A stretch of DNA of 64,000 nucleotides from Alicycliphilus denitrificans K601 (GTDB lineage: Bacteria; Pseudomonadota; Gammaproteobacteria; Burkholderiales; Burkholderiaceae_C): positions 3,737,001-3,801,000 of the forward strand of contig NC_015422.1 in the NCBI RefSeq assembly GCF_000204645.1, read 5' to 3'. The translations under genes and the position numbers were made by a program. This document shows positions 10,374 through 64,000 of this stretch, piece by piece. Positions within the stretch are counted from its first letter, which is position 1. Every line of letters begins with the position of its first letter. The notes beneath the pieces are model-generated. The model saw nothing but the letters and a program-made list of their open reading frames with translations. It did no database searches and was not told where the DNA came from.

Positions 10374-11303
10374 ATGCGCCTGCCCGACCTGCAATCGCTC
10401 AAGCTCTTCGTCGCCGTGTGCGAGCACCGCAGCATCGCCCGCGCGGCGGAGCGGGAGGCCATCGTCGGCTCGGCCGTGAGCAAGCGCCTCGCGCAGCTGG
10501 AGGACACGGTGGGCACGCCCCTGCTGGTGCGCCGGCGCCACGGCGTGGCGCCCACGCCGGCGGGCGAAACGCTGCTGGAGCATGCGCGCGAGATGCTGGC
10601 GAGCGTGGGCCGCATCGAGCGCGACATGGCGGCCTTCGGCGCGGGCATCCGCGGGCACGTGCGCATGCTGGTCACGGCCTCGGTCATGGCCGAGTCGCTG
10701 GCGGACGACGTGGCCGCCTTCCTGCAGGACCCGGCGCACCGCGACATCCAGGTGAGCATGGAGGAGCGCGTGAGCCCCGAGGTGGTGCGCGGCGTGCGCG
10801 AGGGCAGCGCATCGCTGGGCATCTGCTGGGACGCGGCCGACCTCTCGGGCCTGCACACGCGCAGCTACCGCCACGACCACCTGGCCATCGTGGCTCACCC
10901 CGCGCACCCGGTGGCGCGCGCGGCGAGCGTGCGCTTCGCCGACGTGCTGGAGCACCAGTTCGTGAGCATGCCCGCGCTCAGCGCCGTGCAGCAGCTGCTG
11001 GTGCGCGCCGCGGCCGTGGAGGGCAAGACGCTGGAGCACCGCGTGCAGGTGTCCAACTTCGACGCCGCGCTGCGCGTGGTGCGCGCCAACCTGGCCATCA
11101 GCGTGATCCCGCAGGAGGTGGCGCAGCCGTTCGCCGCCAGCACCGGCGTGCGCGTGATTCCCCTGGCCGACGACTGGGCGCGGCGGCGCTTCGCCATCTG
11201 CCACCGCGGCGAGGCGGGCCTGTCGCCCGCGGCCCGGCTGCTGGTGCAGCATCTGGCCGGCCGCGCACGGCAACATGCAAGAATGGAGCCGGCAACTTTC
11301 TGA
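10374..11303 (+). CDS. LysR-family regulator of module 1
   Basis: 309 residues with an N-terminal winged helix (LKLFVAVCEHRSIARAAERE, VSKRLAQLEDTVGTPLLVRR) and a periplasmic-binding-like effector domain. It is divergent from the HMG-CoA lyase/CoA transferase/Bug operon and is the likely regulator of it, sensing a pathway acid or CoA ester. The N-terminal helix carries EREAIVGSAVSKRLAQLE where most LysR proteins have a QPALS motif, a variant seen in a subset of the family. Confidence 0.88.
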   Translation: MRLPDLQSLKLFVAVCEHRSIARAAEREAIVGSAVSKRLAQLEDTVGTPLLVRRRHGVAPTPAGETLLEHAREMLASVGRIERDMAAFGAGIRGHVRMLVTASVMAESLADDVAAFLQDPAHRDIQVSMEERVSPEVVRGVREGSASLGICWDAADLSGLHTRSYRHDHLAIVAHPAHPVARAASVRFADVLEHQFVSMPALSAVQQLLVRAAAVEGKTLEHRVQVSNFDAALRVVRANLAISVIPQEVAQPFAASTGVRVIPLADDWARRRFAICHRGEAGLSPAARLLVQHLAGRARQHARMEPATF

Positions 11304-11332
11304 CACTCGCGCAGGTCAGACATACGCCTTGA

Positions 11333-11371
11333 GCTACCAAACTTGTAGCAACCCCATTTCCGCGCTATATT
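11333..11371 (+). promoter_or_regulatory. Promoter and operator of the HxlR-like gene
   Basis: TTGTAG (11343-11348) and TATATT (11366-11371) are spaced 17 bases apart, a good sigma-70 promoter. An inverted repeat GCTAC-N7-GTAGC (11333-11349) covers the -35 box and could be the autoregulatory operator. Confidence 0.55.
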
Positions 11372-11454
11372 GCTATCGTTTTTTCCAGCCCCCGCCGCCC
11401 CGCCGTCCGCGGTGCGGCGTCCATCACCAAACCCAAGCGCAAGGAGAAGCGTTC

Positions 11455-11760
11455 ATGAGCTCCAAGGAAAACGCCGCCGTCTTTCAGCTGTTCGAGAAAC
11501 TCGAATGCCGCTATGCGCTGCGCGTGCTGTGGGCCCTGCGCGACGGCCATCCGCAGACCTTCCGCCTGCTGCAGGACAGCGTGGGCGGCATCACGCCCAA
11601 CACCCTCAACACCCGCATCAAGGAACTGCGCGAGGCCGGCTTCCTGGACCATGGCAGCGACGGCTACGTCGTCACCCCCGTGGGGCAGGACCTGCTCAAG
11701 CGCGTGTCCGACGTTCAGGCCTTCGCCAACCGCTGGGCCGCGGCCCGCGTGAAGAAATAA
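11455..11760 (+). CDS. HxlR-like winged-helix regulator
   Basis: Small single-domain DNA-binding protein (101 residues). FEKLECRYALRVLWALRDG, TPNTLNTRIKELREAGFL and the wing segment GYVVTPVGQDLL follow the HxlR/PadR-like winged-helix order, with a short C-terminal dimerisation helix. ATG 11455 has a good SD (AAGGAG, eight bases); the frame is open further upstream but without start signals. Such proteins often sense redox or small aromatic ligands; here C-E-C-R at the N-terminus leaves one cysteine that could be redox-active, which is inference. Target genes are unknown; the adjacent FKBP gene is one candidate. Confidence 0.75.
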   Translation: MSSKENAAVFQLFEKLECRYALRVLWALRDGHPQTFRLLQDSVGGITPNTLNTRIKELREAGFLDHGSDGYVVTPVGQDLLKRVSDVQAFANRWAAARVKK

Positions 11761-11811
11761 GGCGCACGACACCCCGCACCGGCCCGCCCCGCGCGGGTTT
11801 TGGTCTTTTTG

Positions 11812-11863
11812 GGCTCAAGCGCTTGCTGGACAAGCGCTGATAGCTCTGATTTTTGAAGCAAAC
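11812..11863 (-). repeat. Comamonadaceae-type palindromic repeat, copy a
   Basis: On the minus strand it reads AGAGCTATCAGCGCTTGTCC, then AGCAAGCGCTTGAGCCCAAA. It matches the family core (AGCT, AGCGCTT, spacer, AAGCGC, GGCC-like tail). It lies between the HxlR-like gene and the FKBP gene. Confidence 0.7.
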
Positions 11864-11875
11864 GAAGGAATCACC

Positions 11876-12235
11876 ATGGCATTCATCACCACCGCCTCCG
11901 GCCTGCAGTACGAAGACACCGTCGTGGGTACGGGCGCGCAGGCCGCGCGCGGCCAGTCGGTGCGCGTGCACTACACGGGCTGGCTCTACCAGAACGGCCA
12001 GCAGGGCGCCAAGTTCGATTCCAGCCGCGACCGCAACGACCCCTTCGAATTCCCTCTCGGCGCCGGCATGGTCATCAAGGGCTGGGACGAGGGCGTGCAG
12101 GGCATGCAGATCGGCGGCCAGCGCACGCTCATCATCCCGGCCGAGCTGGGCTACGGCGCGCGCGGCGCGGGCGGCGTGATCCCGCCCAACGCCACGCTCA
12201 AGTTCGACGTGGAACTGCTGGCCGTGCGCGGCTGA
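11876..12235 (+). CDS. FKBP-type peptidyl-prolyl cis-trans isomerase
   Basis: Short cytoplasmic FKBP of 119 residues with no signal peptide. VRVHYTGWLYQNGQQGAKFD, FEFPLGAGMVIKGWDEGVQG, and the C-terminal AELGYGARGAGGVIPPNATL strand-loop give the complete active-site pocket (Tyr, Asp, Phe, Trp, Tyr). It accelerates proline isomerisation during protein folding. SD-like GAAGGA lies eight bases before the ATG. A dispersed repeat sits just upstream and a strong terminator just downstream. Confidence 0.93.
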   Translation: MAFITTASGLQYEDTVVGTGAQAARGQSVRVHYTGWLYQNGQQGAKFDSSRDRNDPFEFPLGAGMVIKGWDEGVQGMQIGGQRTLIIPAELGYGARGAGGVIPPNATLKFDVELLAVRG

Positions 12236-12256
12236 CGGCGCCCTGCCCTCATCCAC

Positions 12257-12290
12257 AAAAAGGAGCGTGGTGCACCCACGCTCCTTTTTT
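12257..12290. terminator. Bidirectional terminator between FKBP and rimO
   Basis: AAAAAGGAGCGTGG and CCACGCTCCTTTTTT pair over about 13 bp around a short loop, with A and T tracts on both sides, serving both converging genes. Confidence 0.9.
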
Positions 12291-12292
12291 CA

Positions 12293-13684
12293 TCAGACCG
12301 GCACGCCCACCAGGTCGTGCCCCTGCGTGCCCACGATGCGCGCCTTGACGAAGTCGCCCACCTTGTAGGTCTTGCTGATCTTCTCGGGCGGCAGCAGGTG
12401 GACCAGGCCGTCGATCTCGGGCGCGTCGGCCCAGCTGCGGCCCACGCCGCCCTTCTTGCCCAGGCCCACGGCCTTGTCCACCAGCACCTGCAGGGTCTGG
12501 CCCACGCGCCGCTGCAGCCGGGCGGTGGAGACTTCCTCGGCCACGGCCATGAAGCGCGCGCGGCGCTCCTCGCGCAGCTCCATGGGCAGCATGCCCGGCA
12601 GGTCGTTGGCGGCGGCGCCCCGCACGTTGCTGTACGCGAAGCAGCCGGCGCGGTCGATCTGCGCCTCGCGCAGGAACTGCAGCAGGTGCTCGAACTCTTC
12701 CTCCGTTTCGCCCGGAAAGCCCGCGATGAAGGTGCTGCGGACCACCAGCTCGGGGCACATCTCGCGCCAGCGCTGGATGCGCTCCAGGTTCTTCTCGCCG
12801 CTGGCCGGGCGCTTCATGCGCTTCAAGACATCGGGGTGGCTGTGCTGGAACGGCACGTCCAGGTAGGGCAGCACCAGCCCCTCCTGCATCAGCGGGATGA
12901 TGTCGTCCACGCTCGGATAGGGGTAGACGTAGTGCAGGCGCACCCAGGCGCCGTAGGGTCTGGCGATCGCGCCCAGGGTCTGCACGAGCTCCAGCAGTCG
13001 CGTCCTGACCGGCTTGCCGTCCCAGAAACCCGTGCGGTACTTCACGTCCACGCCGTAGGCCGAGGTGTCCTGGCTCACGACGAGCAGCTCCTTCACGCCG
13101 CCCTCGAACAAGGCCCTGGCCTCGTTGAGCACGTCGCCGATGGGGCGCGACACGAGGTCGCCGCGCATCGAGGGAATGATGCAGAAGGTGCAGCGGTGGT
13201 TGCAGCCCTCCGAGATCTTCAGGTACGCGTAATGGCGCGGCGTGAGCTTGATGCCGGCCTCGCCGAACGTGCCGGGCACCAGGTCCAGGAAGGGGTCGTG
13301 CGGCTTGGGCAAATGCTGGTGCACGTGCTCCATCACCTCCTGCGCGGCATGCGGGCCGGTGACGGCGAGCACGTTGGGGTGCACGCCCTTGACGAGGTTG
13401 CCGCCGCCGTCGTCCGCGCGCGCGCCCAGGCAGCCGGTGACGATCACCTTGCCGTTGTCGGCCAGCGCCTCGCCGATGGTGTCCAGGCTCTCGCGCACGG
13501 CATCGTCGATGAAACCGCAGGTGTTGACGATGACGAGATCGGCGCCCTGGAAAGTCTTGGAGGTTTCGTAGCCCTCGGCCGAGAGCTGCGTGAGGATGAG
13601 TTCGGAATCCGTCAGGTTCTTGGGGCAGCCCAGGCTGACGAAGCCGATCTTCGGGGTTTTCGTGGGGGAGAGTGCTTCGCTCAT
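12293..13684 (-). CDS. rimO: Ribosomal protein S12 methylthiotransferase RimO
   Basis: Radical-SAM enzyme that adds a methylthio group to the conserved aspartate of S12. 463 residues: an N-terminal MTTase domain with cysteines C20, C56 and C85 for the auxiliary cluster, the radical-SAM motif C161-x3-C165-x2-C168 ([17 protein letters not shown]), and a C-terminal TRAM domain ([13 protein letters not shown]). The ATG has no SD; instead a GACAAT -10-like box (13691-13696) ends exactly six bases before it, so the mRNA may start at the ATG. Confidence 0.95.
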
Positions 13685-15042: not shown

Positions 15043-15398
15043 TGCGGACTGACGGAGATCTTCGCCGGCAGGGCGTCCCGTCAGGAGTCAAAGGGGGGAA
15101 AGAAAAATCCCTGCAGCGCCATGGCGCAGAGGTGCTCGGGCAGATCCGGAAAAGGATGTGGGGATCCGCAATGAGCTCGCCGCGAAAGGAGGATGACAGC
15201 CGACAGACTTCGCTGGAAGTGCGGCAGAACAGGCGATGGGAGTGCTGTCAGTCAGGCGCCGCCAAGGCAAGCAGTGGGCAGCGCATCGGTGCATTATGCA
15301 CCGCAAATCGAAACATGCAAACTTTTATTCAAAAGAAAGCATATTGCCCGTTGACGGAGCCGGCCCGGGACTCTTCGAGGTCTATCCCTTTGGCCCGG
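15043..15398. other. Non-coding stretch upstream of the small gene and RRM gene
   Basis: No convincing gene lies in these bases. On the minus strand it should be the long 5' leader of the 14827-15042 gene plus its promoter. The plus-strand open frame across it runs into tRNA-Val and is not real. Confidence 0.5.
15293..15320 (-). promoter_or_regulatory. Promoter for the small gene/RRM transcript
   Basis: On the minus strand TTGCAT (15320-15315), a 16-base spacer, and CATAAT (15298-15293) form a sigma-70 promoter. Transcription would start near 15287 and give a leader of about 245 bases. Confidence 0.5.
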
Positions 15399-15437
15399 AA
15401 AGAAAAACGGGTCACAGCGAAGCCGCTGCAACCCGTT
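15399..15437 (-). terminator. Terminator after tRNA-Val
   Basis: On the minus strand AACGGGT...CAGCG-GCTT-CGCTG...ACCCGTT is followed by TTTCTTT, starting nine bases after the tRNA 3' end. Confidence 0.8.
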
Positions 15438-15445
15438 GATTCCAT

Positions 15446-15522
15446 TGGTAGGCGCGATTGGACTCGAACCAACGACCCCCACCATGTCAAGGTGGTGCTC
15501 TAACCAGCTGAGCTACGCGCCT
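15446..15522 (-). tRNA. tRNA-Val (anticodon GAC)
   Basis: 77 bases including an encoded CCA. The acceptor arms AGGCGCG and CGCGCCT pair, the D arm GCTCAGCTGGTTAGAGC and T arm GGTTCGAGTCC are standard, and the anticodon loop TTGACAT gives GAC, reading Val codons GUC/GUU. Confidence 0.95.
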
Positions 15523-15580
15523 GTGATCGTTCGAGAAAGCGAAAGTATAGCAGTAAAAACCCGCCCAGAAAGAAAGCGGC

Positions 15581-17827
15581 TCAGCGCCTGCGCGCCGAGC
15601 GCACCCCCTGCACGCCGGCGACGATGCCCAGGACCTTGTTCAGCCGCCCGGCGTCGGACACCTCCACGGTGAAGGTCATCCAGGCCGTGCCTTTCACGGA
15701 CTGGGTCTGCACGCCGATCACGTTGGTCTTCTCGCGCGCGAACACCTCGGAGATGTCGCGCAGCAGGCCCTGGCGGTCCGATGCCTCCACCGCCACGTCC
15801 ACGGGATAGACGGCCGCCTCCGCCGTCGAGCGCCGCGGCCGGCCCCACTGCACGTCGATCACGCGCTCGGCGTTGCGCGCGGCCATTTCGTGGAAGTTGC
15901 GGCAGTCGGAGCGGTGCACGCTCACGCCCTTGCCGCGCGTGACGAAACCGCGGATGTCGTCGGGCGGCGCGGGCTTGCAGCATTTGGCCAGCTGCGTCAT
16001 GAGCGAATCCACGCCGACCACGAGCACGCCGCCCTTGTGCGCGCCATCGGCCGTGCGCGCCTTCCTGACCAGCAGGTCGGGCTCCTGCGCCACCGGCTCG
16101 GGCGGGCGCAGCAGGGCTTCTATGGAGCGCAGCGACAGCTCGTCCTTGCCCACCATCTCGAACAGCGCGTCCGCCGACTTGAATCCCAGCTGCATGGCCA
16201 GGTCGTCGTGCTTGATGGCCGTCTTGCCCTCGCGCTGCAGCAGCTTTTCCACCAGTTCGCGCCCGCGCGCGACCGTCGCGTGGGTTGCCTGGGCATTGAA
16301 CCAGGCGCGCACCTTGGCCTTGGCGCGGCTGCTGATGAGGTAGCCCAGCTCGGGGTTGAGCCAGTCGCGCGAGGGACGGCCCTCCTTCACGGTGCTGATC
16401 TCCACCGTCTGGCCGTTCTGCAGCGGCGTGTTCAGCGGCACCATGGCACCGTCCACGCGCGCGCCGCGGCAGCGGTGGCCTACGTTGGTGTGGACCGCAT
16501 AGGCGAAGTCGACGGGCGTGGCGCCCTGGGGCAGCTCCACCACCGCGGCGTCGGGCGTCAGCACGTAGATGCGGTCCTCGAACAGGCCGCTGCGGCTGGC
16601 CGAGCCGACCAAGTCGCGCTCCCAGGCCAGCAGCTGGCGCAGCACGGCGATCTTGGCGTCGTAGTCGCTGCTGGCCGACACGCCGGCATAGCCCTTGGTG
16701 CCCGCCTCCTTATAGGCCCAGTGCGCAGCCACGCCGTGCTCGGCATGGTCGTGCATGGCCTGGGTGCGGATCTGGATCTCGATGGCCCTGCCGGCCTCGT
16801 CGCGCACCACCGTGTGCAGCGACTGGTAGCCGTTGGGCTTGGGGCGGGCGATGTAGTCGTCGAACTCGGCCTCGATGGAGGTGAACTGGCTGTGCACCCA
16901 GCTCAGCGCGGCATAGCAGTCCTTGACGCTGGGCACGATCACGCGCAGCGCGCGGATGTCGAACACCTGGTCGAAGTCGAGCGACTTGCCGCGCATCTTC
17001 TTGACGATGCTGTAGATGTGCTTGGGCCTGCCCGACACGCTGGCGCTGATGCTGTGCGCGCGCAGCTCGGATTCGAGCCGGCCGCGCAGCTGCTCCATGT
17101 ACAGCTCGCGCTCCACGCGCTTCTCGTCGAGCAGGCGCGCCACCTCGCGGTAGGTGTCGGGCTCCAGGAAGCGGAAGGCCAGGTCTTCCAGCTCCCATTT
17201 CATCTGCCAGATGCCCAGGCGGTTGGCCAGGGGTGCGAACACCTGCAGCGCCTCGCGCGCGATGGCCGGCGACACCGGGCGCTTGGCGGCCGCGTAGTAG
17301 CGCAACGTCTGCAGGCGCGAGGCCAGGCGCAGCATGACCACGCGCAGGTCGCGCGAGAAGGCCAGCAGCATCTTGCGCACGTTCTCGGTCTGCGTGGCCG
17401 CATCGTCCACCTGCAGGCCGGCCACCTGCGCCTCGCGCGCCTGCAGCTGCACGCGCATGAGCTTGGTGGTCTCCACGGCCAGAGCCGCGAAATTGCTGCC
17501 GAAGGCCTTGCCGATCACCTCCTCGGGCTTGTTCAGGTGCTCGCAGGTGTAGACCAGGTAGGCCGCCGCCTGCATGGTCTCGGAGCCGCCCAGGTTCTTG
17601 AGGATGGCGGCCACCGCGTCCGCATGGGCCAGCGTGTTCTCCCCGGTCTCCAGCGTTTCGCCGATGAGCAGGGGCTCGGCGAACGCACGGGCGCGCACCA
17701 GGGCGTCGGCATGCTCCGTATCGGCCTGCGACGTGGCCGCGATGAGCTGCGGCACGCCGTCGGGACGCGCCGCAGCGGCGCCCGCCTGCGCCATGGGCAG
17801 CGTCTGGCCGATGAAGCTGCTCTTCAT
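15581..17827 (-). CDS. relA: GTP pyrophosphokinase RelA
   Basis: Makes (p)ppGpp from ATP and GTP/GDP on starved ribosomes. 748 residues: an inactive hydrolase-like domain (the HD pair is missing, with YTCEHLNKPEEV at that place), the synthetase domain (RPKHIYSIVKKMRGK, ARPKPNGYQSLHTVV, and E350-IQIRT), a TGS domain (IYVLTPDAAVVELPQGATPV) and a C-terminal zinc-finger/ACT region ending near VSDAGRLNKVLGIVAGVQGV. The lack of the HD residues marks it as RelA, not SpoT. Its ATG overlaps the stop of the upstream hydrolase by four bases (ATGA). Confidence 0.95.
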   Translation of the reverse strand: MKSSFIGQTLPMAQAGAAAARPDGVPQLIAATSQADTEHADALVRARAFAEPLLIGETLETGENTLAHADAVAAILKNLGGSETMQAAAYLVYTCEHLNKPEEVIGKAFGSNFAALAVETTKLMRVQLQAREAQVAGLQVDDAATQTENVRKMLLAFSRDLRVVMLRLASRLQTLRYYAAAKRPVSPAIAREALQVFAPLANRLGIWQMKWELEDLAFRFLEPDTYREVARLLDEKRVERELYMEQLRGRLESELRAHSISASVSGRPKHIYSIVKKMRGKSLDFDQVFDIRALRVIVPSVKDCYAALSWVHSQFTSIEAEFDDYIARPKPNGYQSLHTVVRDEAGRAIEIQIRTQAMHDHAEHGVAAHWAYKEAGTKGYAGVSASSDYDAKIAVLRQLLAWERDLVGSASRSGLFEDRIYVLTPDAAVVELPQGATPVDFAYAVHTNVGHRCRGARVDGAMVPLNTPLQNGQTVEISTVKEGRPSRDWLNPELGYLISSRAKAKVRAWFNAQATHATVARGRELVEKLLQREGKTAIKHDDLAMQLGFKSADALFEMVGKDELSLRSIEALLRPPEPVAQEPDLLVRKARTADGAHKGGVLVVGVDSLMTQLAKCCKPAPPDDIRGFVTRGKGVSVHRSDCRNFHEMAARNAERVIDVQWGRPRRSTAEAAVYPVDVAVEASDRQGLLRDISEVFAREKTNVIGVQTQSVKGTAWMTFTVEVSDAGRLNKVLGIVAGVQGVRSARRR

Positions 17828-55624: not shown

Positions 55625-55948
55625 TCAATGCCCCTCCCCCGTCTCCGGCACATAGACCATGGAGCCATCCTTCATGCGGTAGGCGACACCGGCCTTTTCG
55701 CCGTCGCCTTCGCCGATCTCGCCACTGGCCTTGTACTTCTCGATCTTCTCGCCGCGCTTCTGGATGACCTCCATGCTGGGCTTGCCCGCGTCGGTGATGA
55801 CGGTGACGTCCTGCTTGGAAAACGGACTGAGCAGCGGGTTCTTCGCCACAGTGATGAGCAGCGCGGCGATCACCACCAGGAACACGTCAATCAGGTTGAC
55901 GACCGAGAGGATGGGGTCGTCGGCCTCGGTTTCGTCCAGGAACTTCAT
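55625..55948 (-). CDS. DUF2149 protein (ExbD-like partner)
   Basis: 107 residues: a short N-terminus (MKFLDETEADDP), one membrane segment (about 12-34, ILSVVNLIDVFLVVIAALLI) with an Asp inside it (NLIDVF) and a periplasmic tail rich in charged residues. The acid in the membrane segment recalls ExbD/TolR, which use it in proton transfer. DUF2149 proteins occur next to MotA/ExbB channels and CobN-like genes in hmu-type clusters. ATG overlaps the stop of the channel gene by four bases. Confidence 0.85.
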   Translation of the reverse strand: MKFLDETEADDPILSVVNLIDVFLVVIAALLITVAKNPLLSPFSKQDVTVITDAGKPSMEVIQKRGEKIEKYKASGEIGEGDGEKAGVAYRMKDGSMVYVPETGEGH

Positions 55949-56481
55949 GCCTCGCCTCCTGCCTCCACCATGTGGCCCGCGGCCGGGGTGCGCACGCCCT
56001 GGCGCTGCAGCCACACCAGCTCCTCGGCCAGCCAGCGCCGTTGCACCGACACCACCCAGAAGGTGATGGCTGCGGCAATCAGCGACAGGATCACCGCCGC
56101 GAAGGCCACGGCCAGGTTGTCCGACACCTGCCCCAGGTTGCCGTCTGACAGGCCCTTGAGCGCCGGCCCCATGGGGATCATGGTGGCGATCAGCCCCAGC
56201 ATGGGCGCCACGCGCGTGGCGATGCGCGGCAGCTCCAGCAGCTGGTGGGCCTTCACGTCCAGCTCGTCGGCGCTGGCGCCCGGCCGGGTCCGCGCCCAGG
56301 TCAGCAGGTGGTGGCCGCGCGTGGGCTGCCCGCCCTGCGCCTTGCGGCGCTGCCACCACTGCATGGCGAACATGCCCAGCAGGAAGAAGGCGTAGACGAA
56401 CAGCACGGTGATGACCACCAGGGTCGGGAATAGAAAGACCTGGCTGGCCTGGTACATCAGGGATTCAAGCAAATGGCTCAT
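55945..56481 (-). CDS. MotA/TolQ/ExbB proton-channel protein
   Basis: 178 residues with three membrane segments (about 15-39, 88-108, 122-146). APMLGLIATMIPMGPALKGL is the channel signature, and NLAVAFAAVILSLIAAAITF is the last segment. It should form a proton-driven motor with the DUF2149 partner, energising a TonB-type step for the receptor in this operon. Overlaps the DUF2149 gene by four bases; the broken receptor/Spy-like locus lies 62 bases upstream. Confidence 0.9.
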   Translation of the reverse strand: MSHLLESLMYQASQVFLFPTLVVITVLFVYAFFLLGMFAMQWWQRRKAQGGQPTRGHHLLTWARTRPGASADELDVKAHQLLELPRIATRVAPMLGLIATMIPMGPALKGLSDGNLGQVSDNLAVAFAAVILSLIAAAITFWVVSVQRRWLAEELVWLQRQGVRTPAAGHMVEAGGEA

Positions 56482-56543
56482 GGATGGTTCTCGGCAAGAT
56501 AAAAGCGGGAAATGCGGAATTGGAGTGAAAGACGCTCGGCCTC

Positions 56544-57236
56544 TCAGGCCTTCGCCGTGGCGAGCGCCACCAGGCGCGCGTACTGTTCGGGTGGCAGGGT
56601 CTGGCGCACATGGGCGATGCAGCGCAGGTGGATTTCTGCGGCCTCGCGCCTGAGCTGGGCCAGGCGGCCGAGCTGGGGCGCAAGCTCCCCGGCGCTGCGG
56701 CCGTCCAGCACGGCGCGGCCGATCTCCTGCTCCAGCTGCTGTGCCTGCTGCAGGCGCGGGCGCAGCGCGGGGCGTACCTGTTCGTCGGCGTAGCGCGAGA
56801 GGGACTGCTGGTGCTCGGCCGATGCGCCCAGCTGGGCCACGAACGGCATGAGGTGCGGCAGATGGCCTGGCAGCAGCAGCGCATATTCGGCCGGTGCCGG
56901 GGCAGCGGCCAGGGAGGCTTGGGCGCGCTGGCGCAGTTGGGCGTACTGCGCCGCAGAAAGCTGGGCGCGGATGCGCTGGGCCGCATCGATCTGCACCTGC
57001 GCGGCCTCGCGCTTGAGCGTTTGCAGGCGGTCGAGCCGCTCTGCGAGCTGCTGCACGGTGGCGCCCGCAAGCGCGGCCTGGGCGATGCCTTGCTCGGCGG
57101 CGCGGGCCTGCTCCAGCCGGGACTGCAGCTGGTCGCGCACCTCGAAGGCCAGCGCCGCCAGGGTGGCGCGCTGGGTTTCGTTCAGGCCCAGCGCCGCGGT
57201 CTGGCCCTTGAGCGTCCAGGCCAGATGCGGCAGGTT
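56544..57236 (-). pseudogene. Spy/CpxP-like protein with two repeated modules, 5' end missing
   Basis: The open frame has no start codon of its own. About 230 residues remain. They consist of two similar modules, about 1-105 and 125-226: LPHL at 2-5 and 126-129, LQTLKREAAQVQIDAAQRIR at 71-90 and LAQLRREAAEIHLRCIAHVR at 192-211, and LSAAQYAQL and LPPEQYARL at their ends. The LxxxQ endings recall the LTXXQ motif of periplasmic Spy/CpxP proteins, which chaperone or sense metals. The signal peptide and start seem lost by a deletion that joined it to the receptor fragment. Confidence 0.6.
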
Positions 57237-57993
57237 CCTGCCAGGCCGCCGTGCCGCCCTGGCGCAGGCGGTCGGCGTTGCGCTGGCCTTGCATGATGGC
57301 CGCGCGGCCGGTCCACTTGCCGCCCCAGGCGCGCCATTCGGCCTCGCTGCGCAGGCGGGCGATGCGGATGCGGTTGTCCTCGCTGTCGTGGCGCTGGCTG
57401 CCATCCAAGCGCTGGGGGCGCGTGTCGCGGTCGCCTTCGTTGTAGTACAGGCTGGGCCACAGCGTGAGCTGGCCCGCCGCCAGCTTGACGCTGGTGGCCG
57501 CGCGCGCCACCGGGCGGCGCATGACGAGGTTGACAGTGATGGGCGCGGCGCCGCCAAACTCGGCCGAGCCGCCGCGCAGTATCTCGGCGCGCTCCAACTC
57601 CTCGGCGGGCATGCGCCCCACCTCGGTGAGCGCAAAGCGCGCGTTGGCCGTGGGGCGCTCGCCGTTCACGAGGAACTGCACGGCAGCGCGCGACATGCCC
57701 CTGGCGCGCGCATTCATGCCGCCGTCGGCGCCATGCTCGCCCGCGTCTACGCCGGGCAGCTTGCGGATCAGCTCGCCCACGGTCAGGCCGCCCAGGGCGC
57801 GGATTGCATCGCGGTCGATGATGGTTTTTTGCGTGGCGGCGCTGCGCTGCTCGTCAAGCGCGCTACCTTCCGAGTGCACGGTCACCTCGCTCAACTGGCG
57901 TTCGGGCGCGCCCTGCTGGCCCTGTGCGCTGTCCCAGGCGGCTGCCAGCAGCAGTCCGGCGGCACAGCGGTGCGCCGTTGTATGAAAAGACAT
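57237..57993 (-). pseudogene. TonB-dependent receptor fragment (plug and first strands)
   Basis: About 252 residues: a signal peptide (MSFHTTAHRCAAGLLLAAAW), a plug domain (RDAIRALGGLTVGELIRKLP, FLVNGERPTANARFALTEVG, AEILRGGSAEFGGAAPITVN) and the first barrel strands to about RNADRLRQGGTAAWQ. The rest of the barrel, normally 400 or more residues, is absent. At about 57237 the frame enters the Spy-like sequence out of phase. The frame stays open to 55945 only because GC-rich DNA lacks stops. Confidence 0.65.
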
Positions 57994-57999
57994 TTTGCT

Positions 58000-58058
58000 A
58001 CCAAATAAATAGCTGTTAGCGCTTATGTATCAAGCGCAAAAGGCCAATTTGCTTGAAA
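58000..58058 (+). repeat. Palindromic repeat, copy j (near consensus)
   Basis: AATAGCTGTTAGCGCTTATG, then TATCAAGCGCAAAAGGCCAA. Lies at the 3' end of the CobN-like gene, whose last codons and TGA stop are in it. Inverted relative to copy k at the 5' end of that gene. Confidence 0.85.
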
Positions 58059-61000
58059 CCCTTCCCCTGCGCTGCCACCAGCCACCGCCCAGCATGACGG
58101 CGCCCAGCACCAGCGCCACCCACAGCGCCTGCCATGCGGGGACGGCGCTGTCGCGGGGCTGCTCCCGTACCTGCTCCAACCGCATGCCGCTGATGGGCGG
58201 CGGGGGCGGCACGGGGGAGGGATCGGCCTGGGGCGGGGGTTCGGCCGCCTGCGCGCTGGGCGCGGGCGCCGCGGCGGCAGTGGCGCCGGGCGTGCCTGCC
58301 GCCAGGCCGTAGCCCGCAGCCCCCTGCCCTGCGCCCACGTAGCGCTGGAAGGCCGCGTTGTCGGTGCGCACGTCGAAGCGCTGGGCCAGGTCGCGCCAGC
58401 GCTCCTTGAGCTCGCGCACGGTGGCGGCGTCGGCCTGCCAGTAGCCCTGGCGCGCGGCCTCCAGCATGCGCTCCATGGTCTGGGCCAGGGCGTGGGGGTT
58501 CTTCGTCTCGAACCAGTCTTTCAGGCCCAGCTGGTGCTTGTCGCGCACGTAGACATCGACCATCTCCTGCCACTGGTCGTCGCGCACGATCTCGCGCGCG
58601 GTGGCCGTCCAGCCCCAGAAGTTGTTGGTGGCGTCCAGCACCTGCAGGGTGCCGGCGTAGCCCTCCTTCATCAGGCCCTGGATGTAGCCAGGGTGGAACT
58701 GGCGCGTGGCCAGCTCCTTGGCCAGGAACTGCGCCGCGCCCTCGACCCGGCCGCTGCCCGAGCCGCGCAGGTTGCTGATGTAGAGCTCGGGCGCCTTGCC
58801 GTCCAGGTGGCGCACGGCCAGCGCGATGCCGCCCAGGTACTGGAAGGGGTCGTCGGTGGTCAGCATGCCGTAGAGGTTGGAGCTGCGCGAGAGCACCGCG
58901 CCCTCGGTGCCGCTCAGGTGCTCGGCGTAGAGGTTGACGGCCTTGCCAGCCTTGCCCGCGCCTGCCGCGGCGGCCCCGGCGACTCCGGCCTGGCCCCACT
59001 GCGACTCGTCGGGGCCATAGGCGTACTGCATCTTGTCCAGATACAGCCGGGCCAGCTTGCGGTCGCCCTCGGCCTTGCCCTTCCAGGTGTCGGTGGCCAG
59101 GGCCGCATCGTCCAGCCCCGTGCCGTAGCGCCCGCTCTCGGACGCGAAGATGCGCGTGGCGCCGGCCAGCTCGGCGGCCTTGGCATCGGCGCCGGCGGCC
59201 ATCATCTTTTGCGCGATGCGCTGGCTGTTGGCGGCGACGGGGTTGTCGGCCTCATCCCTGGCGCGGGACGCCAGCAGCACGGCGCGGGCCAGTTGCTGCA
59301 TGACGTTGGGGAAATGGTCGCGGTACAGGCCGGTGGCCGACAGCACCACGTCCACGCGCGCGCGGCCCAGTTGCTCGCGCTCGACCAGCTTCACGCCAGT
59401 GACGCGCCCGCCCCTGTCCCACACGGGCTCCACGCCCAGCAGCCACAGTGCCTGGGCTTCGAGCATGCCGAAGTGGCGCATGGTCTCCACGGACCACAGG
59501 CTGAAGGTGAGCTTCCTGGGCAGCTTGCCGTGCAGTTTCTTGTGCTCGGCCAGCATGTTCTCCGCGGCCTGCTTGCCGGCCTCCCAGGCCTGCCTGGTAG
59601 GCACGCGCGAGGGGTCGAAGCCATAGAGGTTGCGGCCCGTGGGGTAGGCGTCGGGACTTTTGATGGGGTCGCCGCCGTAGGAGGTGGGCAGGTAGCGCCC
59701 GTCCAGCACGGCCAGCAGGCCGGGCAGCTCCCCCTGCGCGCCCAGGTTGGCATAGGCCTGGCGCGCATCCTGCAGCGCTTTTTGCAGGCCCGGGCTCAGG
59801 CCATCCAGGCTTTCGCCTGCGACCACGTGGCGCCGCAACAGTTGGTAAGGCGCGGTTCTCTCCAGCCTGTCCCAGGGGCCGACCAGGGCCTCGTCCAGGT
59901 CGGCGGCGGGCACGCCCGCGTGCCGCGCCGCGGCCTCCCAGAAGTTCTTGCCCAGCATGAGCAGCACGGTGCCCAGGCGGTGCAGTTCCTCGGGCGCGCG
60001 GCCCAGGGTGTGCAGGCCCTGCGGCTGGGCGGTCTGCGCCAGTTCGTGCAGGTGGTTGTGCAGTGCCTGCACGAAGTCGGCGAAGCGCTCCTTGACGCGG
60101 CCTTCGGTCCAGCCCATGTCGGCGATCACGCGCTCCTTCTTCGCTGCGGCCAGCAGGTCGGCGGCCATGCGCTCGCGCACGGCGCCCTCGTCCTGCGCCT
60201 GCCACTGGTGCAGCAGGTCGTGCATCTGGGTCAGCGCGTCGTGCAGGCCGCCGGGGGCGAACGGCGGGGTCTGGTGGCTGACTATTGTTGCCCGCCCGCG
60301 GCGCTTGGCCTGGGTGGCCTCGCCGATGTTGTCCGCGATGTAGGGGTAGGCCACGGGAATGTCGCCCAGCGCCAGCAGCGGCGCGTCGTACACCGACAGG
60401 CCGCGCTCCTTGCCCGGCAGCCATTCCTGCGTGCCATGCGTGCCGTAGTGCACCAGGGCGTCGTTGTGCTGGCGCGTCCACAGGTAGGTGGCCAGGTAGT
60501 GGTGCGGCGGCAGGTCGGTGGTGGAGTGGTAGATCTCCTTCTCCTTGGCGCGCGCGTCCTGGCTGCCGGGGGCCATGCCGCTGCGGCCCGGCTGGGGCAG
60601 CAGGGTGATCTGGCCCAGTTGCAGGCGCGGGATGACGAAATAGTCCTGCCCGCGCTGGCGCATCACCCAATGGGATTTCTCGGGCGCGCCCCAGGCGCTG
60701 CGCAGCGCGTCCTGCGTGGGCTGCGGCAGGCTGGAGAGCCACGCGCGGTAGTCCTTCACCGGCAGCAGCGCGGCCAGGCCGTCGCGCAGCAGCGGCTCCA
60801 GTTCGCCGCCGCGGTAGGCCGGGGCCAGCAGGCGCTGCAGCAGGGTGATCAGGTGCGTCTCGTCGGGCACCTCGGTGCGGTAGCCCGCGGCGGCCATGCC
60901 GGCCAGCGTGCTTTGCAGGCTGCGCGGCACGTTCAGGAACGAGGCCGACAGGTTCTTCTCGCCCGCCGGGTAGTTCCAGAACATCACGGCCACCTGCTTG

Positions 61001-62097
61001 TCGGCATTGGGCTTGCGCTGCAGCTTGACCAGGTTCAGCGCCTTGGCGGCCACGGCCGCGGCCTGGGGCGTGATGGGCATGATCTGCTCGTCGCCCTTGC
61101 GCGTGGCGGATGCGACCTGTATGTCGGTGATGCCGGCGTATTCGGCCTGCGCCATGTAGAACGGCACGTCCATGGTGGCCACGCCCTGCGGGTTGGCGGC
61201 CCAGTCGGCCTCGTCGCCGCGGCGGTAGGTCATGGCCTGGATGACCGGGATGCCCATGCGCTCGAACTCCGTGCGCCGCTCGTCGGCAAGGAGCGTGATC
61301 TGGGTGTTGATGAGCACGTCGGCCAGCACCGGCGTGCCCGGGCCGGCGGGCTGCAGCACCTTGGGAAAGCCGCCCTCGCCCATCATCGGCGTGTAGAACG
61401 GCAGGGCCACGGCGCCACCGGCCTCGATGCGCGCGACCATGTCGTCGATGTAGGCCGTCTGCATGGAGCCTATGTATTGCTGGTGCAGCGCAATGGCGAC
61501 CACGGGCTTGCGCCCGGGCGCGGCCGGGTCCACGCCCTGGCCGCGCAGGTAGGCGCGCACGTCGGCCGTGACCAGGCCCGGCAGGCGCGGGTGGTACACG
61601 CCCGTCTTGGGGAACACCACGGGCTCGGGCGCCGCCGCCATGGCGTTGCCGCCGGCAAGCTGCGCCGCCAGCGTGGAGAAGAAACCCTCGTAGTTCTGCC
61701 GCCCGCCGCTGGCGTAGTAATCGATGAGCCTGCGCGCCACGGCCTCTGGCAGGCCGCCGCCCCAGGCGGGGCGCTGGTCGTACAGCCAGGCGTTGGGCGC
61801 GGCCAGGCCGGGCAGCGCGCGCACCAGGCGGTCGCGCACCTCGTCCTGCTGGTAGCTGTCGAAGAACACGGCGTCCCGCCCGCGCCACAGGCCGGCATCC
61901 ACGTCGGCCGGCAGGCTGTTCAGGTAGCGCACCTCGACGGTCAGGCCGTGCGGGCGCGCGATCTCGGCGAGCTGGTGGAACTTGCCCTGCGGCACGTTGC
62001 CCGTGGCGATGAACAGCACCGACGCGGCGCGCGCCGCGCCGGCCAGCAGGAGCAGCGCGGCGCACAGCAGCCAGCGGAGCTTGTGGTTTCCAGTCAA
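58030..62097 (-). CDS. Exported, membrane-anchored CobN-like chelatase (HmuS-like)
   Basis: 1355 residues. CobN/BchH family: H550-YGTH554-GTQEWLPGK, PTGRNLYGFDPSRVPT, GLYRDHFPNVMQQLAR, and SESGRYGTGLDD. Unlike cytoplasmic CobN it starts with a signal peptide (LRWLLCAALLLLAGAARA) and ends with a Pro-rich linker and a membrane anchor (WQALWVALVLGAVMLGGGWW), so its body should face the periplasm. No CobS/CobT ATPase genes are in the window. The start is TTG 62097 with AGGAGG five bases before it; both come from repeat copy k. With the TonB receptor, ExbB-type channel and DUF2149 it resembles HmuS of Bacteroidetes, a haem dechelatase candidate. Confidence 0.88.
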   Translation of the reverse strand: MTGNHKLRWLLCAALLLLAGAARAASVLFIATGNVPQGKFHQLAEIARPHGLTVEVRYLNSLPADVDAGLWRGRDAVFFDSYQQDEVRDRLVRALPGLAAPNAWLYDQRPAWGGGLPEAVARRLIDYYASGGRQNYEGFFSTLAAQLAGGNAMAAAPEPVVFPKTGVYHPRLPGLVTADVRAYLRGQGVDPAAPGRKPVVAIALHQQYIGSMQTAYIDDMVARIEAGGAVALPFYTPMMGEGGFPKVLQPAGPGTPVLADVLINTQITLLADERRTEFERMGIPVIQAMTYRRGDEADWAANPQGVATMDVPFYMAQAEYAGITDIQVASATRKGDEQIMPITPQAAAVAAKALNLVKLQRKPNADKQVAVMFWNYPAGEKNLSASFLNVPRSLQSTLAGMAAAGYRTEVPDETHLITLLQRLLAPAYRGGELEPLLRDGLAALLPVKDYRAWLSSLPQPTQDALRSAWGAPEKSHWVMRQRGQDYFVIPRLQLGQITLLPQPGRSGMAPGSQDARAKEKEIYHSTTDLPPHHYLATYLWTRQHNDALVHYGTHGTQEWLPGKERGLSVYDAPLLALGDIPVAYPYIADNIGEATQAKRRGRATIVSHQTPPFAPGGLHDALTQMHDLLHQWQAQDEGAVRERMAADLLAAAKKERVIADMGWTEGRVKERFADFVQALHNHLHELAQTAQPQGLHTLGRAPEELHRLGTVLLMLGKNFWEAAARHAGVPAADLDEALVGPWDRLERTAPYQLLRRHVVAGESLDGLSPGLQKALQDARQAYANLGAQGELPGLLAVLDGRYLPTSYGGDPIKSPDAYPTGRNLYGFDPSRVPTRQAWEAGKQAAENMLAEHKKLHGKLPRKLTFSLWSVETMRHFGMLEAQALWLLGVEPVWDRGGRVTGVKLVEREQLGRARVDVVLSATGLYRDHFPNVMQQLARAVLLASRARDEADNPVAANSQRIAQKMMAAGADAKAAELAGATRIFASESGRYGTGLDDAALATDTWKGKAEGDRKLARLYLDKMQYAYGPDESQWGQAGVAGAAAAGAGKAGKAVNLYAEHLSGTEGAVLSRSSNLYGMLTTDDPFQYLGGIALAVRHLDGKAPELYISNLRGSGSGRVEGAAQFLAKELATRQFHPGYIQGLMKEGYAGTLQVLDATNNFWGWTATAREIVRDDQWQEMVDVYVRDKHQLGLKDWFETKNPHALAQTMERMLEAARQGYWQADAATVRELKERWRDLAQRFDVRTDNAAFQRYVGAGQGAAGYGLAAGTPGATAAAAPAPSAQAAEPPPQADPSPVPPPPPISGMRLEQVREQPRDSAVPAWQALWVALVLGAVMLGGGWWQRRGRVSSKLAFCA

Positions 62098-62150
62098 ATT
62101 GGCCTCCTGCGCTTTATGGACAAGCGCCAGCAGCTATTACTTTCGTAGTC
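62093..62150 (-). repeat. Palindromic repeat, copy k (near consensus)
   Basis: Minus strand: AATAGCTGCTGGCGCTTGTC, then CATAAAGCGCAGGAGGCCAA, then TTTGAC. It fills the gap between the receptor and the CobN-like gene, and holds the SD (AGGAGG) and TTG start of the latter. Confidence 0.85.
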
Positions 62151-64000
62151 AGAAGTCGAGACGCGCGGTCACGAACACGCGCCGGCCCTGCTCGGCGTAG
62201 CCGAAGTTGGGCGACTTCTCGGCCAGGCGCACGTCGCCCATGTTCTCCAGCCCGGCGCGCAGGTTCAGGCTCTGCGTGGCATTGAGCTTCCAGGCGCGGC
62301 CCACGCTGGCGTTCCACAGGGTGTAGGCGGGCAGCCGGTAGCCGGAGCTGTCCTGGCTGCCGGTGTATTGCAGGCCCAGGCGCGCATCCCAGCCGGCCAC
62401 GCGCCACGCCAGGTGGGAGGCCACGCTGGTGCTGGGCCTGTCGCTCAGGCGCTTGCCCGTGGTCTTGTCGCGCGTGCGCAGCAAGGTGGCGTCGGTGTTC
62501 CACGCGAGCTGCGGCGTGATGGCCCAGGTGAAGCCCGCCTCCAGCCCCTGGATGCGCGCGGCGTCCACGTTGTCGTACTGGTAGATGCGCCGTGGGCCGA
62601 TCTGCTGCAGCAGGCGGTAGGTGATGAGGTCCTTGACCTCGGTGTGGAAGGCCGTGGCGCGCAGCGACCATGCGGGGCTCACCTGCCAGTCGGCGCCGAT
62701 CTCGAACGAGTTCGACGTCTCGGGCTTGATATCGGCATTGCCCATGAAGGTGTGCGGCCCCTCTGCGCCCACGTAGTTGGGCGATATCTGCTTGAGCGTG
62801 GGCGCCTTGAAGGCGTGGCCGAAGCCGCTTTTGACGACCAGCGCGCTGCCGGCCTCCCAGACGAGGTAGGCGCGCGGGCTCAGCTCGGAGCCGAAGATGC
62901 CGTGGTGGTCGGCGCGCAGGCCCAGCGTGGCGATCAGGTTCTTGCCCAGTGCGAACTCGTCCTGCACGAACAGGGCCTTGTGCGTCACGTCGTCGCTGCC
63001 GGTGGTGAGGCCGGCGTTCACCAGCTCCTCGTTGCGCCACTCGCCGCCCACGGTGAACTGGTGGCTTCCGAAGCGCGTGCTGGCATGGCCGTCCACCACG
63101 TCGTCCGTCATGTCCTGCGGACGCGTGGGCGCCACGCCGTTGGTGCGCGAGTTGCGCACGCTGAACTCGCTGCGATAGGCGCGCAGCTGCGTCTTCCAGC
63201 CGCCCACCTCGCCCCTCCAGCCCACGTGCGTCTGGCGGCGGTCCAGGTCGTAGCGGTTGAAGTAGGGCTTGGCGCCGCTCACGTCGTCGTAGAAGCGCTG
63301 CTCCTTGCCGTCGGTCACGCCGGCCTCCAGCACGTGGCCGGGCGCGAGGTCGAACTCGGCGTTCAGCCCCAGGCTGTGCGGCTTGCGGCCCTCGATCTCG
63401 CTGTAGCGCGGGTCTTCCTTCTCGGGCACGGCATCGCGGTGCGCGTACTCGGCGTTGACCGACATGCGCAGCCGGTCGGTGAGCGGCCCGGCGGCGAAGA
63501 TCGACGTGCCGGCCTCGCTCGCCCCGTCGCTGCCCACGGCGTGCGAGCCGGTGACGCCGACGGAGCCGATCCAGCGGTCCTTGGGCTTCTTGGAAATGAT
63601 GTTCACCACGCCGCCCAGGGCCTCCGAGCCGTAGAGCGCCGACATCGGGCCGCGGATGATCTCCACACGCTCGATGGCCGAAATCGGCAGCCAGCCGTAC
63701 TGGTAGTCCGAGTGGCCGATCACGTCGTCGCTGGCGCTGATGCGCCGCCCGTCGATCAGCGTGAGGGTGTGCTTGCCCTCCAGGCCGCGCAGGGCGAGCG
63801 TCTTGCGCCCGCCCACCTGGCGCGCGCTCAAGGTGATGCCGGGCGCGCCGCGCACGGCGTCCAGCAGGTCGGCGGCATTGCGCTCGGCCAGGTCCTGGGC
63901 GGTGATGACGGTGACGCTGGCCGGCGCGGTGCGCGCGTCCTGCTCGGTCAGCGTGGCCGTGACGGTGACGGCGGGCAGCGGCGCGGCGGCCACGACTTCG
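62149..64000 (-). CDS. TonB-dependent outer-membrane receptor (N-terminus outside the window)
   Basis: At least 617 residues; the signal peptide lies past the window edge. Plug: TVTATLTEQDARTAPASVTV, DLLDAVRGAPGITLSARQVG, LIDGRRISASDDVIG, and IERVEIIRGPMSALYGSEAL then GGVVNIISKK. Barrel through the C-terminal aromatic strand (RRVFVTARLDF). The plug resembles the CirA/FepA/BtuB class; the motif FKAPTLKQISPNY and GNADIKPETSNSFEIG are general for receptors. Nothing proves a haem ligand. As first gene of the operon it should import the substrate of the CobN-like enzyme. Confidence 0.9.
   Translation of the reverse strand, partial: EVVAAAPLPAVTVTATLTEQDARTAPASVTVITAQDLAERNAADLLDAVRGAPGITLSARQVGGRKTLALRGLEGKHTLTLIDGRRISASDDVIGHSDYQYGWLPISAIERVEIIRGPMSALYGSEALGGVVNIISKKPKDRWIGSVGVTGSHAVGSDGASEAGTSIFAAGPLTDRLRMSVNAEYAHRDAVPEKEDPRYSEIEGRKPHSLGLNAEFDLAPGHVLEAGVTDGKEQRFYDDVSGAKPYFNRYDLDRRQTHVGWRGEVGGWKTQLRAYRSEFSVRNSRTNGVAPTRPQDMTDDVVDGHASTRFGSHQFTVGGEWRNEELVNAGLTTGSDDVTHKALFVQDEFALGKNLIATLGLRADHHGIFGSELSPRAYLVWEAGSALVVKSGFGHAFKAPTLKQISPNYVGAEGPHTFMGNADIKPETSNSFEIGADWQVSPAWSLRATAFHTEVKDLITYRLLQQIGPRRIYQYDNVDAARIQGLEAGFTWAITPQLAWNTDATLLRTRDKTTGKRLSDRPSTSVASHLAWRVAGWDARLGLQYTGSQDSSGYRLPAYTLWNASVGRAWKLNATQSLNLRAGLENMGDVRLAEKSPNFGYAEQGRRVFVTARLDF

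Follow-up and report, generated by a model that had tools for sequence, protein, structure and literature searches.

An HmuS-like exported chelatase with an ExbB/DUF2149 pair in Alicycliphilus denitrificans K601, probably part of a heme-iron acquisition system

The 64,000-nucleotide stretch of Alicycliphilus denitrificans K601 analysed here (contig NC_015422.1; referred to as the window) ends in a minus-strand gene cluster encoding a TonB-dependent receptor, a class-I chelatase large subunit, an ExbB-type proton channel and a DUF2149 protein. The probable role of this gene set is the uptake of a ring molecule that carries iron, of which heme would be an example, with extraction of the iron outside the inner membrane. 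The interpretation which we consider most likely, with moderate confidence, is that a periplasmic demetallase coupled to a proton motor supplies the cell with iron from heme. The 1355-residue chelatase is, as judged from its sequence, a class-I chelatase and not the CobN protein of B12 synthesis. The genes and their linkage, the predicted topology and the phylogeny of the chelatase, the heme genes beside its relatives, the absence of a cobalamin riboswitch and the presence of FeoB are observed, whereas heme as the substrate, the removal rather than insertion of iron and an action of the motor on the chelatase are inferred.

Gene content and features of the chelatase

The four genes placed here by the original prediction are all open on the minus strand in the order claimed, and their Pfam matches lie above cut-off. 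The receptor (62149..64000, running off the window), both domains of which (PF00593 and PF07715) exceed their cut-offs, is followed after a gap of 51 bases by the chelatase (58030..62097; PF02514, 966.7 bits), and further on by the MotA/TolQ/ExbB-family channel (55945..56481; PF01618, 30.5 bits with a cut-off of 22.9) and the DUF2149 protein (55625..55948; PF09919, 101.3 bits), the start of which overlaps the channel stop by 4 bases. The genome stretch beyond the window (L002; compared loci are likewise designated by L and a number) was used for the receptor start and promoter, and the receptor start codon, located by eye, lies ~104 bp past position 64000 (~9105 in L002). These genes take the HmuR, HmuS, HmuU and HmuV positions of the Bacteroidota operon, in the naming of which HmuU is the channel, HmuV the DUF2149 protein and HmuT a hypothetical protein (PMC10434189, PMC13227078). 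Relative to this naming the letters of the operon type proposed in the original prediction, viz. hmuRSTU, are shifted, and what stands of that proposal is an hmu-like set: the R, S, U and V gene kinds are found, HmuT is unrecognised, HmuY is absent among the window proteins scanned, and a complete hmuYRSTUV operon is not present.

The signal peptide and C-terminal membrane anchor ascribed earlier to the chelatase are both seen in the sequence, the N terminus being signal-like (LLCAALLLLAGAARA) and the C terminus consisting of a hydrophobic helix followed by Arg. A C-terminal helix of this kind (KD19 >= 1.6) is present in 12 of the 21 window-clade proteins, but in 0/10 B12 CobN and 0/5 ChlH proteins, and these counts, which are drawn from sequence alone, oppose a cytoplasmic location; the N-terminal hydropathy count (14/21 window-clade, 2/10 B12 CobN and 0/5 ChlH proteins) is a poor separator. 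The protein also contains an HYGTHG motif of the HFG(T/A)HG kind, in which His554 corresponds to the catalytic His538 of HmuS, an aligned His being present in all rows; the first His of this motif precedes Tyr where HmuS has Phe. In work from 2025-2026 on Bacteroidota, purified HmuS removed iron from heme and left the ring whole (PMC12583661, PMC13227078); protoporphyrin IX and Fe(II) are the products characteristic of HmuS.

Among proteins of solved structure, the best relative of the single chelatase sequence is HmuS, though narrowly (367.6 bits vs 364.5 for the CobN structure 9uk9), and an 18-sequence profile of relatives scores 694.8 with HmuS vs 575. The structure-based comparison with HmuS and CobN suggested in the original prediction gave a split result: the AlphaFold model of residues 26-1225 is of low confidence (mean predicted local distance difference test score, pLDDT, 63; predicted template modelling score, pTM, 0.49), and Foldseek placed HmuS first by E-value (template modelling (TM) score 0.42) and the CobN structure 7c6o first by TM-score (0.47), which is non-discriminating.

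Phylogeny and the heme or B12 genes beside the relatives

The NCBIfam model nearest to the window protein is the equivalog NF004644, which is named CobN and scores 1359.5 bits (cut-off 1248). However, this name is misleading, as the heme-linked L077 protein is also above its cut-off (1424.7 bits), and the naming of the lineage as cobaltochelatase CobN is contradicted by phylogenetic trees. The true B12 CobN rows L025, L029 and L034 match TIGR02257 above cut-off and the ChlH rows L036 and L040 match BchH; this model check covered five CobN and ChlH rows, the other such rows being labelled by motif. Three trees were constructed, comprising 52 rows, 66 rows (without eleven near-copies) and 35 rows (a chosen subset, under a mixture model); their supports are values of the Shimodaira-Hasegawa-like approximate likelihood ratio test (SH-aLRT) from quick searches on shared data, and the fragments L011, L033 and L035 and the frame-broken L022 were left out. 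In all three trees B12 CobN forms a clade separate from the window protein with a support of 100, and HmuS joins the window's side with supports of 97, 83 and 85, respectively. The 17-row set containing the window protein in the 35-row tree (support 98) includes five heme-labelled rows and no B12-labelled row, and L077 lies within the window's 100-support clade. A grouping with B12-synthesis CobN, one of the three results named in the original prediction as counting against its hypothesis, was not seen.

CobNST cobaltochelatase and ChlHID magnesium chelatase are biosynthetic and cytoplasmic, and CobN and ChlH act on tetrapyrroles. Their large subunits belong to the same family (PF02514) as the window chelatase. 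However, these enzymes are ATP-driven (PMC12583661), whereas the window chelatase is predicted to be exported, branches apart from them and lacks partners: CobT (TIGR01651) and CobS both gave no match in a genome-wide profile search, which extends the earlier remark that no such ATPases are nearby. The CobS model (TIGR01650) was above cut-off in 1 of 30 genomes and mostly yielded generic AAA+ matches, and it is hence uninformative across genomes.

A locus of a relative received a heme label when its neighbours included HmuY, ChaN or an above-cut-off heme receptor, and a B12 label when they included B12 genes or when its protein was a member of the long group that occurs among such genes (L060-L068, L086 and L090-L094, n=15; L065 and L066 by group alone). 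HmuY (PF14064) is above cut-off in L054 and L055, ChaN (PF04187) in L077, and heme/hemoglobin receptors exceed their NCBIfam cut-offs in L057, L077, L081 and L082 (4/20 receptors tested), that of L057 being divergent and ~3 kb off. In the window's part of the tree there are six relatives with HmuY, ChaN or heme receptors, which account for all heme labels except that of HmuS, and no B12 labels, the neighbours of the loci labelled as other in this set having been checked for part of them. B12-pathway proteins are present in L062, L067, L086, L090, L092, L093 and L094, and L061 and L062 have BtuB-like receptors that match the B12 model best, though below its cut-off.

A similar distinction is provided by the cobalamin riboswitch, which is present in 12 of the 15 B12-labelled loci (none in L065, L066 and L093), vs 0 of 24 loci comprising the window's own upstream region and 23 window-clade, heme-labelled or near-kin loci, two of which (L003 and L013) include little upstream DNA. 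For this contrast, computed with the first eight B12 loci scanned (7/8), the Fisher p is 2.4e-6. Several B12 loci carry the riboswitch upstream of the receptor or another gene and not of the chelatase, and the receptor of L065 is under a thiamine pyrophosphate (TPP) riboswitch; a cobalamin riboswitch is not necessarily carried by every B12 CobN. A B12 riboswitch upstream of the receptor, beyond position 64000, was both a check and a counter-indication named in the original prediction, and none is found in the window or in the ~10 kb upstream of it (L002).

An exported chelatase with ExbB and DUF2149 also occurs in the B12 setting (L060-L068, L086 and L090-L094), where a different tetrapyrrole would be served by this motor unit. 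Eleven of these loci (L060-L064, L067, L068 and L091-L094) are like the window in having all three components, but differ from it in their riboswitches (10/11) and in an active site that is mostly NDAFDYLGG. In L091 a CobW-type GTPase and a FUR-family regulator (10469-12945) lie next to the exported chelatase, which is under riboswitch control; these neighbours may point to zinc or cobalt. Related clusters also include a Fer4_5 membrane protein (L058 4721-6115) and a PepSY_TM protein (L071 7679-8938), which are possible electron donors for heme reduction.

Within the genome of strain K601, heme oxygenase (PF01126) and HemS (PF05171), the two heme-degrading families searched for, gave no match, and FeoB is present. 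This combination fits, but does not prove, a periplasmic release of iron as proposed for Bacteroides (PMC6460266).

Receptor, regulation and alternative substrates

The window cluster resembles the HmuS/hmuYRSTUV system in its TonB receptor, in a chelatase predicted to be exported and membrane-anchored, in ExbB-like and DUF2149 proteins equivalent to HmuU and HmuV, in the catalytic HxGTHG histidine and in the FeoB of the genome. However, it differs in its CirA-like receptor, its proteobacterial host and the lack of HmuY and HmuT, and several further results weigh against a heme-iron function of HmuS type. The features defining HmuS are Met79 and His254 as ligands of a non-substrate heme, His1209, Glu1212 and a methionine-rich insertion (PMC12583661). 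In our own reading of a profile alignment, Met79 and His254 pair with Tyr82 and an Ile; the methionine-rich domain IV insertion is absent, residues 715-913 of HmuS standing opposite ~40 profile positions; and the motif LSLDHxxEFMGG with His1209 and Glu1212 is not found. Where HmuS has LDHVYEFMGG, all 21 window-clade rows have DDPFQYLGG (LTTDDPFQYLGG), a DD..Q form that is also that of most B12 CobN rows (DDYYQFQGG) and of the riboswitch-bearing L086 and L090; L058, L059 and L078 have DHPFEYLGG. Due to the missing residues and insertion, the window protein is not HmuS by the definition of PMC12583661, and HmuS itself is represented in the trees by one partial, long-branched row. As the chelatase lacks the diagnostic features of HmuS but keeps the essential His538, it may be working in an HmuS-like manner without being HmuS. 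The D/Q versus H/E difference was considered as a marker for heme or cobalt, but it was rejected because D/Q occurs in heme-labelled (L054, L055, L057, L077, L081 and L082) as well as B12-labelled (L086 and L090) loci.

The receptor provides a further point on this side. The model that it matches best is CirA (309.5 bits, below the cut-off of 745), and among solved structures the colicin I receptor comes closest; scores with heme receptors are lower. Because of this CirA likeness, the haem substrate of the original prediction is kept here in conditional form, as suggested by the heme genes of the relatives.

For control by Fur or Zur, the 400 bases before each receptor were scored, in the case of Fur with a consensus sequence, against 200 dinucleotide shuffles. 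For Fur, the window and 7/9 relatives, i.e. eight of these ten receptor fronts, had p<=0.05 (combined 5e-8), but the combined value does not come from independent data, as the loci are related. L003 and L010 fail, and in L015 and L020 the best match sits at the start of a neighbouring gene outside the receptor promoter, so six of the ten matches are credible. Judged against 400-base tiles from elsewhere in each locus, the Fur score is equalled by no more than two tiles in 6/10 cases, L003, L010, L017 and L020 doing worse. The Fur-box search upstream of the receptor that was proposed earlier did yield a Fur-like palindrome, ATACGAAT-7-ATTCGTAT (L002 9284-9306), but a weak one (12/19, p 0.04). 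At ten further fronts of heme-labelled or other relatives Fur passes in four (L056, L057, L081 and L082) and fails in six, L077 included. L022 and L023 fail in the 400 bases tested, and canonical-looking boxes were seen by eye further upstream. Over all 30 fronts Fur passes in 16 (four of them at a second receptor described below, three of these on the Crp gene start) and Zur in 3 by its 13-base form and 3 by its 14-base form. The Fur-like boxes are suggestive only.

Of the other possible functions, the acquisition of zinc or cobalt is unlikely, though a precedent exists in the Zur-controlled Pseudomonas aeruginosa PA1922-PA1925, a proteobacterial operon with, by description, the same gene kinds (TonB receptor, CobN-like, ExbD-like and hypothetical proteins), which is induced 44- to 147-fold when znuA is mutated (PMC4542158) and whose PA1922 promoter is bound by Zur (PMC8531726). 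The 14-base P. aeruginosa Zur consensus also scores p<=0.04 in L022, L023 and L084, a result unfavourable to the heme reading, and the distant L091 adjoins the CobW and FUR-family genes noted above, though also a cobalamin riboswitch. However, before the window receptor Zur scores at chance level, so that the Zur box typical of PA1922-PA1925, an operon assigned to zinc, is not found there; Zur is at chance in 9/10 fronts of the window and its nine relatives by the 13-base form and in 10/10 by the 14-base form, and the combined Zur value is 0.14. Further, the clusters of the relatives contain heme genes, and Zur control of PA1922 seems to be unique to P. aeruginosa among the Pseudomonas groups compared (PMC10393844).

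A siderophore route, in which a ferric catecholate or another iron chelate would enter through the CirA-type receptor and lose its iron to the chelatase-like protein, is distinctly improbable. The CirA likeness of the window receptor, the fact that CirA is also the best model for the receptors of L056, L073, L084 and L085, and the Fur-like boxes in some relatives would agree with such a siderophore function, but the characterised relative HmuS acts on a tetrapyrrole (PMC12583661), and true heme receptors are present in L077, L081 and L082, the chelatases of which are 51-60% identical to that of the window. The occurrence of heme receptors beside such similar chelatases suggests one ligand with exchangeable receptors. 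Lastly, the salvage or remodelling of imported corrinoids, with cobalt removed from or inserted into them, is very unlikely, since the CobN name of NF004644 and the DD..Q form shared with most B12 CobN rows and the B12-linked neighbouring lineage of L086 and L090 are outweighed by the riboswitch contrast, the support-100 split, the missing CobS and CobT and the inclusion of L077 in that model.

The probable proton motor, neighbouring genes and proposed mechanism

The neighbourhood search for CobN-like proteins plus DUF2149 that the original prediction had called for gave a consistent linkage. In the class sample DUF2149 occurs in 18/274 genomes, and in all 18 PF02514 is within ~4 kb (17 of the 35 genomes with PF02514 are without DUF2149). 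The order sample has DUF2149 matches in 30/399 genomes, and PF02514 is within ~4.3 kb in 26 of the 27 above cut-off, the exception being G330, which has none; of the three below it, one carries PF02514 on a different contig and the other two lack it. The window's genome is counted in both samples. The chelatase, ExbB and DUF2149 are found together in 40 of the 41 loci fetched for DUF2149, and in L060, L066, L074, L087 and L091 no TonB receptor was detected within ~5 kb at the sensitivity used.

HmuU is described as an ExbB homologue, and HmuV as lacking homology to known protein families (PMC13227078). The membrane helix of the window DUF2149 protein is ExbD-like, NLIDVFLVVIAALL, with Asp21; in its pattern NLxDvxLV the Asp is invariant in 15/15 aligned proteins (compare TPLVDVMLVLL of ExbD), and hhalign gave a short, weak match of 18 columns with two ExbD proteins (E 5e-4, probability 30%). 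This likeness is suggestive only. As for the earlier claim that the channel powers the chelatase, the genomic linkage is in its favour, and on this basis the channel may power the chelatase. On the opposing side, genome G330 has an ExbB/DUF2149 pair (L089 9489-10369) with no PF02514 match, and HmuS shows activity in vitro when neither ATP nor a motor is supplied, though for 1-2 turnovers only (PMC12583661); in view of this motor-independent activity, the motor may instead serve the receptor or transport.

The 1.5 kb separating the chelatase and the channel is occupied by two minus-strand remnants. One of them (57238..57993) retains only the plug domain of a third TonB receptor, the back of which is missing; it runs on into the other (56544..57239), the headless tail of a further gene, which lies in a different frame. 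Whole copies of both are present in L009, L016 and L021, and compared with L009 the window is short of ~0.23 kb and ~1.38 kb here. The headless gene has no Pfam match at E 0.001; its whole L009 copy (15304-16206, 300 amino acids) is lipoprotein-like by eye, with no match above cut-off. The cluster (55644-63978) is a mosaic, in which the receptor and chelatase are closest to L017 (58181-63978, 87.5% identity, vs 75-79% to L009) and the downstream part is closest to L009 (55644-57235, 87% identity; the parts alignable to L017, 69-77%). L017 has no second receptor, L020 is from Alicycliphilus, and the nearest named relatives among the compared loci are Comamonadaceae.

Upstream of the cluster lie minus-strand genes for NnrS, an ABC ATPase, a permease, an SsuA-like binding protein and a second TonB receptor (L002 9425-15570), and a divergent Crp/Fnr-type regulator on the plus strand (L002 15646-16377). 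The Crp gene, second receptor and binding protein are also upstream in 7/22 loci (L004, L006, L007, L008, L009, L016 and L021), and in six of these the ABC and NnrS genes are downstream of DUF2149, the exception being L016, where the contig ends. The NnrS gene next to the cluster is a hint of nitric-oxide or denitrifying conditions. An FNR/DNR-like palindrome near the Crp gene was discarded, because its matches are the coding start of the Crp/Fnr gene and the pattern occurs in 1/11 regions.

Under the favoured heme-iron reading, the cluster would be an iron-responsive import system of HmuS type, in which an iron tetrapyrrole, most probably heme or a related compound, reaches the periplasm through the receptor. 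There the membrane-anchored chelatase would bind it in the central cleft of class-I enzymes and take out Fe(II). His554 would be the main acid or ligand, with Asp1083 replacing the second His of HmuS, and the released Fe(II) would enter via FeoB. The ExbB and DUF2149 proteins would form an ExbB/ExbD-like proton motor acting on the chelatase in product release or cleft opening, as a periplasmic counterpart of the CobST or ChlID ATPases for their chelatases. More generally, we suggest tentatively, and at somewhat less than even confidence, that class-I chelatases have a third energy format, in which an ExbB/DUF2149 motor, with DUF2149/HmuV as the ExbD-like half, substitutes for the AAA+ ATPases as the partner of an exported enzyme working outside the cytoplasm. 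This unit would serve different tetrapyrroles, viz. heme in the lineages of HmuS and of the window protein and corrinoids in those under riboswitch control.

The literature found comprises the HmuS work in Bacteroidota and the zinc work on PA1922-PA1925, and none on the beta-proteobacterial lineage was recognised in a search that most subscription journals fell outside. The results presented here point to a proteobacterial sister lineage of HmuS, with another form of the active site, no accessory heme site and the name of a B12 enzyme at NCBI. In addition, a missing motor half may explain why purified HmuS halts after 1-2 turnovers (PMC12583661).

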